64,000 bases of DNA from Pseudomonas akapageensis (lineage in GTDB: Bacteria; Pseudomonadota; Gammaproteobacteria; Pseudomonadales; Pseudomonadaceae): contig NZ_VXCP01000001.1 of assembly GCF_011355085.1 (NCBI RefSeq), positions 324,285 to 388,284 on the forward strand, given 5' to 3'. A program made the position numbers and the translations under genes. Under the pieces are notes generated by a model that worked only from the letters and a program-made list of their open reading frames with translations, was not told the origin of the DNA and searched no databases. The first letter of the stretch is position 1; each line of letters opens with the position of its first letter. Shown piece after piece: positions 21,325 through 30,158 of the stretch.

Positions 21325-21461
21325 GGAACCCCCGGCTTTATTGCTGTTATGGGTTGCAATCGAGCTTAGCCTTGTTCATTTTTTTACACAACACCCCTGT
21401 AAAAAATAGAACACGGTCCGCTCAAGCCTGTATCTGCCGAGACGGCAAACGTGTTTTGAGC

Positions 21462-21506
21462 GCCCTAAAGTGCGACAAAAATAGCTTTTTAGCGCTTTTT
21501 TAGGGC
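21462..21506. promoter_or_regulatory. Inverted repeat in the spuA/spuI divergent region
   Basis: Perfect 8-base arms GCCCTAAA (21462-21469) and TTTAGGGC (21499-21506) flank an A/T-rich core containing AGCGCTTTTT. It lies about 95 bases upstream of the spuI ATG in the 277-base divergent gap. It could be an operator for a polyamine-responsive regulator; no regulator gene is adjacent. Confidence 0.4.
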
Positions 21507-21601
21507 AAAACAGGGCTTCCTTGACTTCAGTCCGGCTTTCGGATTGACTGAATCAGTAAGAGCTCATTGATTGAAATTTTTAACAACAAAGGTGTTGCAT
21601 C

Positions 21602-29286: not shown

Positions 29287-29430
29287 TCAAACGTTTCCTT
29301 GTCAGGGTCAACGGGTGGTGCGAGGTGGGTATCTCGCTGGGAATGGGGAGACATTAACAGCTGTTGTATATGTCTTAAAATCATATTTATTCATTTGATT
29401 ATGCCTTTAATGAATATAAAAATATGCCGT
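29287..29430 (-). promoter_or_regulatory. ssu operon promoter region with sulfur-type AT-rich motif
   Basis: The sequence upstream of ssuE turns strongly A/T-rich. The 15-mer AATATAAAAATATGC at 29413-29427 (plus-strand reading) recurs exactly at 30923-30937 upstream of lsfA, at comparable distances (127 and 97 bases) from the two ATGs. Sulfonate operons of this type are activated by the LysR regulator CysB, so a CysB-family site is the likely meaning; the exact -35/-10 cannot be fixed by eye. Confidence 0.6.
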
Positions 29431-29499
29431 TACCAGTGCTGATCTTTTAGTGAAAGGTCCTAGGAACTATCCTGCGTGCGCTGTCGCTTCTGGCTGATT

Positions 29500-29726
29500 G
29501 TTCGGTCCAGGTCGGGGGAATAACTTTGCTCTGTCGCTGGAAACCAGCGACGGGTGTGAGAACCCGATTAGGATATCGATACCAGTTTTATGGCAGCCAT
29601 ACGTGGGCAGATTTCGGTCTGGCCGGGTTTCGTATCCCTCGGTTTCTCACCCCACGTACGGCTGCCACCCTGAGCTGTGAGAAGTTCAGACGGCCGTCTC
29701 CTTAGTCGGATACGAGAGCACCACAA
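29500..29726 (+). ncRNA. Candidate structured 5' leader RNA of the DUF3077-like gene
   Basis: A 227-base stretch ahead of the small gene shows extensive self-pairing. One hairpin has perfect 8-base arms, GTCGCTGG (29533-29540) and CCAGCGAC (29544-29551). A long helix pairs 29592-29607 (GGCAGCCATACGTGGG) with 29651-29666, 15 of 16 positions. Another, GTGAGAA (29556-29562) with TTCTCAC (29644-29650), crosses it, so the two form a pseudoknot or alternate. The start codon region has only a weak ribosome site, with CTC/GAG pairing near it. I cannot name a known family. A cis-regulatory element or processed sRNA fits better than protein. Confidence 0.55.
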
Positions 29727-30017
29727 ATGAAAAAAATCACCCCCGACCCACCTTTCACCCTCGGCAAAACCACCACCACCCCATTCGGCACCTGCGATGC
29801 CGGCCACGCCCCTTTGTTCGCTGTACGCAATGGCATTGCCGCTGAAGATGCGCTGGTGCATGCCTCGTTGTTGTTGCGCGGGGTTTGCGATAGCACCAGT
29901 GCTTGTTTTCAGCCGGGCAGTAGCCTGGAGCACGATGGTTTGCTTTGGTCGAGCCTGCATAGTGCCGAGATGGCGAAGGCGTGGGTGGATGCGGTGCTGG
30001 ATGGAATGCAGGTCTAA
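29727..30017 (+). CDS. Small hypothetical protein, DUF3077-like
   Basis: 96 residues from the ATG at 29727 (MKKITPDPPFTLGK). The middle reads FAVRNGIAAEDALVHASLLL, followed by a predicted helix SAEMAKAWVDAVLDGM at the end. This layout matches my recollection of DUF3077, a Pseudomonas-restricted family of small cytosolic proteins of unknown function; the assignment is tentative. It contains two cysteines and no signal or membrane segment. Its long structured leader is the unusual part. It is convergent with lsfA across a palindromic repeat. Confidence 0.65.
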   Translation: MKKITPDPPFTLGKTTTTPFGTCDAGHAPLFAVRNGIAAEDALVHASLLLRGVCDSTSACFQPGSSLEHDGLLWSSLHSAEMAKAWVDAVLDGMQV

Positions 30018-30025
30018 GCCGACTC

Positions 30026-30130
30026 CTCGTTCCCACGCTCCGCGTGGGAATGCAGTGCCTGACGCTCCAGCGTCACAGCCGCGACGCGGAGCGTCGCTGG
30101 ATGCATTCCCACGCAGAGCGTGGGAACGAG
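30026..30130. repeat. Long palindromic intergenic element, copy 3
   Basis: Same outer arms as the other copies (CTCGTTCCCACGCTCCGCG and CGCAGAGCGTGGGAACGAG), with GACGCTCCAGCGTC and GACGCGGAGCGTC inside. It begins 9 bases after the small gene's stop and abuts the lsfA terminator. Confidence 0.9.
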
Positions 30131-30158
30131 AAAAAAAAGGGGCCGTAAAAACGGCCCC
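30131..30158 (-). terminator. Intrinsic terminator of lsfA
   Basis: Perfect eight-base arms GGGGCCGT (30139-30146) and ACGGCCCC (30151-30158) with a four-base loop. Reading the minus strand the stem is followed by eight T (30138-30131). Confidence 0.93.

Follow-up and report, generated by a model that had tools for sequence, protein, structure and literature searches.

A C4 antisense RNA unit predicted to control a DUF3077 gene on the chromosome of Pseudomonas akapageensis

The leader of a small DUF3077 gene in Pseudomonas akapageensis, situated in a stretch of 64,000 nucleotides that was analysed as a whole (the window; the parts of the unit described here all lie on its plus strand), has as its core a C4 antisense RNA, by sequence a member of the family known from the immunity of phage P1. 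The stretch very probably constitutes a chromosomal C4 unit, composed of a promoter, the sites a1 and b1, the C4 RNA, the sites a2 and b2, and the DUF3077 gene, in which C4 would repress translation of the gene; we infer transcription, processing and repression from the sequence. Membership in the RNA family, covariation of the stems, complementarity at four sites, a preference of the C4 RNAs for their own sites, and a gain at the junction of ssuE and a peroxiredoxin gene can be read from the DNA itself; in the best reading of these data, the window unit represents one gained copy of a multiplied, mostly self-specific antisense module of phage type.

Structure of the leader RNA

The Rfam model of C4 (RF01695) matched positions 29586–29672 with 73.1 bits, against a gathering score of 45, over model positions 1–87 (E 2.4e-12 for the 64-kb window). 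The earlier note, written from the sequence alone, had described three helices in this leader, and all three are found where it placed them: an 8-bp hairpin (29533–29540 with 29544–29551, 8/8 paired), a long helix (29592–29607 with 29651–29666, 15/16 paired), and a helix that crosses the long one (29556–29562 with 29644–29650, 7/7 paired). They exceed chance expectation, since the long helix is the closing stem of the C4 match and the C4 stems covary in 49 copies. The structured, conserved and covarying regulatory RNA that the note had envisaged 5' of a small gene therefore agrees with the Rfam match and the stem covariation, and the covariance-model search that it had proposed was run on the leader and placed RF01695 above the gathering score. 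Unconserved helices and missing compensatory changes, which it had named as counter-evidence, were looked for; the stems covary, and loops and targets change together. The leader is a member of a known Rfam family, and neither a riboswitch-like pseudoknot nor a new RNA fold: the crossing helix exists as a pairing of segment a' with site a1, one of the two partners (a1 and a2) of a', and does not by itself demonstrate a pseudoknot or a two-state switch; the a1–a' helix is absent from the free fold of the whole leader.

The names of loops and sites used here follow the P1 record AF234172 and were assigned to the C4 structure by position. The first leader hairpin (8 bp, 29533–29551) is part of a stretch resembling c4-a1b1 (RF03163; 29520–29570, 30.5 bits, below the gathering score of 46.7). 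It is followed by site a1 (GTGAGAA, 29556–29562), the complement of a' and one half of the crossing helix, and by site b1 (GGATATCGA, 29571–29579), an imperfect complement of loop b' with one extra base. In C4 (29586–29672), a closing stem surrounds two hairpins, a feature of the family that is backed by covariation. The apical loop of the third C4 hairpin forms b' (TCGTATCC, 29630–29637), which complements b2 and, imperfectly, b1; segment a' (TTCTCAC, 29644–29650) lies between the third hairpin and the closing stem and complements both a1 and a2. By analogy with the P1 annotation and with the account of C4 processing in Weiss et al. (2016; PMC5320573), the mature C4 would extend from about 29592 to 29668, and the first GG of the closing stem would form its 5' end.

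As in other C4 RNAs, a' and b' complement sites that precede the start codon of the downstream gene. These further sites, which the earlier note had not listed, are a2 (GTGAGAA, 29677–29683), the second partner of a', and b2 (GGATACGA, 29708–29715), the partner of b', 11 nt 5' of the start codon of the 96-codon DUF3077 gene (29727–30017; PF11275), the presumed direct target. Because the ribosome-binding site of the window gene is poor, b2 merely abuts the GAG of the ribosome-binding region. Neither sequence recurs elsewhere on the plus strand of the 64 kb, where GTGAGAA is present solely at a1 and a2, and GGATACGA solely at b2. The translational gating that had been suspected for the small gene is probable, with b2 placed against the ribosome-binding region and a' and b' matched to a2 and b2.

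A search of 29400–29800 for riboswitches and other cis-regulatory classes, up to E 1, returned C4, c4-a1b1, isrK (RF01394; 24.1 bits, cut-off 50) and a neisseria frameshift element (18.9 bits, cut-off 50); all except C4 remained below their cut-offs. A 60-codon frame with a TTG start (29498–29680, plus strand) overlaps the leader and C4 and is probably due to chance. Elsewhere in the window, Rfam matched the Pseudomonas sRNA P1 (RF00623) at 21328–21508 with 158.3 bits.

C4 copies and stem covariation

The genome (6.37 Mb in 89 contigs) contains 49 C4 copies, all above the gathering score; C4 was found in none of 14 control genomes. In the Rfam structure, the 49 copies have 27 base pairs with 99.0% of the cells paired, and 16 of these 27 pairs have changed on both sides; the covariation score was 0.421, and not one of 500 shuffles attained the observed pairing, two-sided changes or score. 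When the partner strand was slid by 1–3 bases, pairing fell to 27–47%; kinship among the copies can by itself beat such shuffles without any structure, but not slides to this degree. The expectation that the loops are the fastest-changing part of C4 held in part: among the copies with a length of exactly 87 nt (21 of 49), the mean entropies of the b' loop (1.01 bits) and of a' (1.06) were above those of the closing stem (0.42) and the third stem (0.20) and below that of the second hairpin stem (1.33). At their ends, 47 of the 49 copies start with ATGG, and 42 end with CCACC.

The genome has 43 DUF3077 matches, 42 of which are found directly behind a C4 on the same strand (the exception is C8:153898), and a frame of the protein family follows within 700 nt of 48 of the 49 C4 copies, as identified by a family HMM; ten of the 15 proteins used to build this HMM came from the tested set, the window protein among them. 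For the weakest C4 (C8:142970), the frame may in fact belong to the neighboring unit 242 nt further on. In the C4 units L100, L101, L107, L114, L115 and C36:70355, the small gene falls outside the DUF3077 HMM and shows by eye a similar LF/LLIDT-plus-helix pattern, perhaps that of a further family branch. The C4 of L053 (C52:97581–97679) has a b' loop of 26 nt, compared to the usual length of about 14, with 9-base runs that match in both b1 and b2.

The earlier note had mentioned a similar block ahead of other small Pseudomonas genes, and was right in kind: a like hairpin was anchored 5' of 44 of the 49 units by an automatic procedure that missed the other five, among them the window unit, whose hairpin was seen directly. 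The first hairpin lies mostly 90–104 nt 5' of C4 in the units of this genome, and 53 nt in the window unit.

In 13 genomes of the same genus, this one included, the number of C4 copies was 49, 2, 21, 10, 10, 42, 41, 11, 1, 38, 36, 27 and 3. DUF3077 and DUF6124, which are related families, each occur in 10 of these 13 genomes, and the remaining three carry just 1–3 C4. Among the six genomes of other genera in the same survey, one had a single C4; across the class, at least 10 of 228 other genomes matched C4 at E 1e-8, with 1–4 copies each (18 candidates scored per genome).

Promoter region

A promoter-like site, TTGTTC and TAACTT separated by 17 nt (29498–29526), was read from the sequence at the place where the family has the pattern TTG-N16-22-CTANNCT. 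This pattern, the consensus of which was drawn from the 44 anchored units and thus not from the window unit, occurs 5' of the first hairpin in 30 of 49 units (200 base shuffles: mean 0.87, maximum 5). The window copy departs from CTANNCT and reads AATAACTT; a sigma-70 scan of the window promoter region gave no site. For RpoS promoters of pseudomonads, the −10 element is described as (T/G)CTATACT (PMC2375449); the family motif CTANNCT agrees with its fixed positions, and the window copy fits poorly. Stationary-phase control is a lead for the family, not for the window copy. On the 5' side of the promoter, a block at 29457–29509 (CCTAGGAACTATCCTGCG...) is 85% shared with C8:187601–187653, which precedes the sister unit C8:187734; it may be a regulator site.

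Matching of loops and targets

For each loop, the longest exact complement in the unit's own region was compared with those in the regions of all other units (48 units, the weakest C4 omitted). Own matches surpassed permuted ones at all four sites, with Z values of 16.0 for b'–b1, 18.2 for b'–b2, 16.8 for a'–a1 and 18.8 for a'–a2, beyond all 20,000 permutations; with wider search regions, Z was 17.6 for a1 and 16.3 for b1, and 25 units that share no a' or b' gave Z values of 9.4–13.6. Control comparisons, three with regions elsewhere and one with the same strand in place of the complement, resulted in P values of 0.41–0.89; as a positive control, the same procedure recovers the known P1 sites, a2 with a run of 6 and b2 with a run of 8. 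RNAduplex with free positions was too loose, ranking own sites first in 6–19 of 49 cases, and position-limited exact runs were used instead. The test was repeated in two other genomes with the best 17 of 36 C4 (G010) and the best 14 of 42 C4 (G005), a selected and not a random sample; 16 of the 17 fetched units were usable in the former (Z 8.5–8.9) and 13 of the 14 in the latter (Z 5.3–8.1). A frame of the DUF3077 family follows C4 in 12 of these 16 and 9 of these 13 units, and other small genes follow in the rest, except in L106, where the gene behind C4 resembles a phage antirepressor by eye.

The combinations of a' and b' are all different in the 48 units, which have 26 distinct a' and 43 distinct b'. 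At a strict cut-off, which requires an a2 run of at least 6 and a b2 run of at least 7, own pairs pass in 28 of 48 cases and foreign pairs in 0 of 2256. At a looser cut-off, which accepts b2 runs down to 5, the numbers rise to 43 for own pairs and 45 for foreign pairs. Because these 45 foreign pairs pass, insulation by the run measure is strong yet incomplete. The own target was the single best by summed runs for 34 of the 48 units; units 2, 19, 24, 39 and 46 fail the own-site test even at the looser cut-off.

The own runs of the window unit are 7 for a2 and 8 for b2, and its C4 matches the a2 of its two sister units over 7 bases and their b2 over just 4. The sister proteins are 91 and 86% identical to the window protein, and b', b1 and b2 differ; as judged by dN/dS values of 0.06–0.11 among the three sister copies, the sister DUF3077 proteins are under purifying selection. 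In 12 relatives of the window leader elsewhere (L058–L069), a' is kept (TTCTCACC or CTCTCACC), and b' and the sites differ by genome, together as far as can be judged by eye.

Proposed mechanism and the DUF3077 protein

In the proposed mechanism, the region from the promoter to the DUF3077 gene would be read as one transcript, from which C4 would be excised. The cut would probably be made by RNase P at the first GG of the closing stem, a site where 47 of the 49 copies carry ATGG. The segments a' and b' of C4 would then bind the mRNA at a2 and b2 and mask its ribosome-binding region, which would confine synthesis of the DUF3077 protein to times when C4 is in short supply or sequestered; a1 and b1 would offer C4 the same complements as a2 and b2.

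The small gene had been called DUF3077-like, and its product matched PF11275 with 29.8 bits (cut-off 21). All of the 15 family members that were scanned match DUF3077, and 13 match DUF6124, at E 0.01; the window protein has 12 named relatives, each of them from Pseudomonas. An AlphaFold model built from 13 sequences (mean pLDDT 66.2, pTM 0.47, residues 1–29 under 50) places helices at residues 39–60 and 67–95, and predicts with modest confidence a two-helix hairpin. Foldseek searches against PDB and BFVD returned nothing at E 0.001; the first row, a likeness to the histidine-kinase dimerisation domain (RetS/GacS), had an E of 0.73 and was not significant, and the best Z of VIA-align (8.8) was within the chance level for helical bundles. 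The protein had no match in NCBIfam up to E 1, and its PHROGs matches belong to phage families of unknown function. No matches were obtained for the window protein and one paralogue in phages, for the window protein in plasmids, and for two paralogues in viral contigs; because the phage record DVM-2008 carries a DUF6124 gene, such phage and plasmid searches miss distant members. In the open-licence literature, DUF3077 is mentioned in one paper, for a resequencing mutation in P. putida; no mention of DUF6124 was found there.

The proposed repression by C4 could be extended, without being replaced, by a toxin–antitoxin function, in which DUF3077 slows or stops growth like Icd of P1 and C4 serves as a type I-like antitoxin. 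This extension is unlikely at present: the position of the DUF3077 gene in the place of icd, the tight linkage of C4 and DUF3077, and the own-site preference of the units would accommodate it, but a Pfam comparison of Icd, taken up to E 10, returned no match to DUF3077 and thus showed no kinship of the two, the absence of PADLOC matches up to E 1 gives no indication of a known defence protein, and the modest two-helix hairpin of the DUF3077 model has no significant fold match.

Phage counterparts, trans-acting immunity and cis-acting leaders

DNA with approximately 80% identity over C4 occurs in 10 phage records, with two phages listed twice; five of the 10 records were inspected, and the C4 stretches in them were identified by DNA identity, not by the Rfam model. 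The C4-like stretch is followed by an annotated antirepressor in PAShipCat1, by a BRO-N protein in PAJU2, and by small unknown genes in vB_Pae_U10 and phiAH14b; in DVM-2008 (L087), C4 and the DUF6124 gene are located beside the prophage repressor gene prtR, as a chromosomal-type unit within a phage region. Chromosomal and phage C4 units thus look like one kind of device.

It is very improbable that the chromosomal C4 RNAs act mainly in trans on incoming phages or satellites, as an immunity store with the DUF3077 genes as passengers or sensors. The C4 of P1 does act in trans in immunity, as stated in Weiss et al. (2016; PMC5320573), the phage records with C4-like DNA are consistent with such a role, and units 11, 15 and 22 match the b2 of phiAH14b over 9 bases, though its a2 over just 3–4. 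When run matching was applied to six phage targets (P1 and five Pseudomonas phage records, two of them nearly identical), however, five of the six were matched by 0 of 48 chromosomal C4 with runs of at least 6 for a and at least 7 for b, the sole match came from the unit with the 26-nt loop, and trans-immunity against these targets was not supported; the fit of the units to their own genes is not needed by this idea.

Slightly less probable again is a purely cis-acting leader, in which the 7-bp crossing helix forms a pseudoknot or an alternative state and no separate antisense RNA is made. Intramolecular pairing of a' with a1 is possible, and a1 and b1 follow a' and b' across the units (Z 16–18), but a cis-acting leader leaves unexplained the second matched pair, a2 and b2 at the ribosome-binding region, and also the full C4 fold with its P1-like ends; furthermore, the same parts belong in P1 to an antisense RNA that represses icd-ant translation (AF234172).

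Probable gain at the ssuE–peroxiredoxin junction

A chromosomal C4 unit acting on its own gene remains the preferred reading, and related genomes were compared at the junction between ssuE and the peroxiredoxin gene. Of 148 other genomes of the genus, 126 had a match to ssuE, and the best 29 loci were examined; in 28 of these, ssuE and the peroxiredoxin gene adjoin with a gap of 186–361 bases, compared to 904 here, and in the remaining locus the peroxiredoxin gene was not found. The Rfam model detected no C4 in the 20 of these 28 loci that were scanned; a loose C4 pattern matched in 9 of the 29 loci, by coordinates never in the gap. Conserved bases of both gap ends are recognizable by eye in the window (11 gaps compared), and therefore roughly 0.55–0.7 kb, extending from the promoter to the gene and a REP-like palindrome, was probably gained at this junction; that every relative has lost it is less likely. 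Relatives of the window leader occur in at least 12 of 148 other genomes (E 1e-20, five candidates scored each), and neither ssuE nor the peroxiredoxin gene was found in the 1.7–3.2 kb around them. The REP-like palindrome (about 30022–30131, GTTCCCACGCTCCGCGTGGGAA type, by eye) is located directly behind the DUF3077 gene, inside the stretch that is absent from the relatives; a similar repeat occurs in the same gap of locus L125.

A decayed remnant of a phage immunity region, devoid of present function, is hardly credible: it would suit the like-arranged C4 stretches before the antirepressor and BRO-N genes of PAShipCat1 and PAJU2, and the absence of the unit from the same junction in related genomes, but the concerted change of loops and sites in 48 paralogues, a dN/dS of 0.06–0.11 for the gene, and an upstream promoter pattern common to the units are all unlike decay.

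Significance

Among the matches listed, no paper on C4–DUF3077 pairs was found in the open-licence literature; the supplement of Weinberg et al. (2010) may mention such pairs. As far as seen, three findings are new: the linkage of C4 with DUF3077, the preference of dozens of paralogous units for their own four sites, and the gain of the unit at the junction. As a tentative generalization, the chromosomes of the genus might host a large, cassette-borne family of phage-type antisense RNAs and small proteins (49 RNAs here), whose loops and targets have co-diverged under selection for insulation; a cell would then contain dozens of near-orthogonal RNA switches, each acting on a different member of a single family of helical proteins. 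These switches might respond to stationary phase and take part in prophage or growth control. The second hairpin stem, which is more variable than the loops, makes this generalization somewhat less likely.

The pseudoknot leader of the earlier note becomes a specific, testable mechanism, and the DUF3077 and DUF6124 proteins gain a candidate regulatory partner. The genome offers dozens of natural antisense–target pairs with a common scaffold, in which recognition depends on two short segments and cross-talk is predicted to be low; they provide a data set on RNA specificity after duplication; the C4 units are also possible parts for orthogonal translational switches. A phage immunity device is tied in this way to a chromosomal gene family that has spread through the genus.

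Comparison with known systems

In P1, repression of icd also halts transcription into ant. The P1 record AF234172 annotates a2 and b2 with 'repression of icd ant translation', and icd as inhibitor of cell division. The immI c4-icd-ant region of P1 and P7 resembles the window unit in the order of promoter, a1, b1, C4, a2, b2 and small gene, and in the fold of C4; the distances from a1 to b1 (15 nt here vs. 14), from the start of a2 to b2 (31 vs. 29), and from the start of b2 to the start codon (19 vs. 18) are also similar. Given this P1-like downstream spacing, the DUF3077 gene occupies the place of icd, and C4 would be aimed at the ribosome-binding region. In contrast to P1, the distance from b1 to the C4 start is 21 nt here (vs. 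74), the place of icd is taken by a DUF3077 gene without Pfam likeness to Icd, ant is absent and the next gene encodes a peroxiredoxin on the other strand, and one genome contains many copies.

The C4 stretches of Pseudomonas phages have a flanking layout that is similar by eye, and b2 runs of 7–9 with their own C4; PAJU2 and PAShipCat1 differ by an own a2 run of just 4. IsrK of the Salmonella prophage Gifsy-1 is unlike the window leader, on which the isrK model remained below its cut-off. The CI RNA of phage P4, a processed antisense RNA with the complementary sites seqA and seqC on both sides in its own transcript, as described in Hershko-Shalev et al. (2016; PMC4825925), shares with the window unit the complementary sites up- and downstream of an antisense RNA.

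The motifs C4 and c4-a1b1 were recorded for Proteobacteria and phages (Weinberg et al., 2010; PMC2864571), and C4 is cited for Pseudomonadales in Weiss et al. (2016; PMC5320573). The C4 of Weinberg et al. (RF01695, RF03163) is the same RNA family; its passages on C4 considered here are silent on DUF3077, on how many copies a genome carries, and on the specificity of the pairs. The Group 1 sRNAs of Acinetobacter baumannii AB5075 are described as many C4-like RNAs in one genome with variable a' loops, and with a pattern of RNA-seq reads that points to processing as in P1 (Weiss et al., 2016; PMC5320573). They resemble the present family in the number of C4-like RNAs per genome and in their variable loops; whereas their targets, phage or host transcripts, are left open in that account, nearly every copy in the genome analysed here has matching sites and is followed directly by its own gene.
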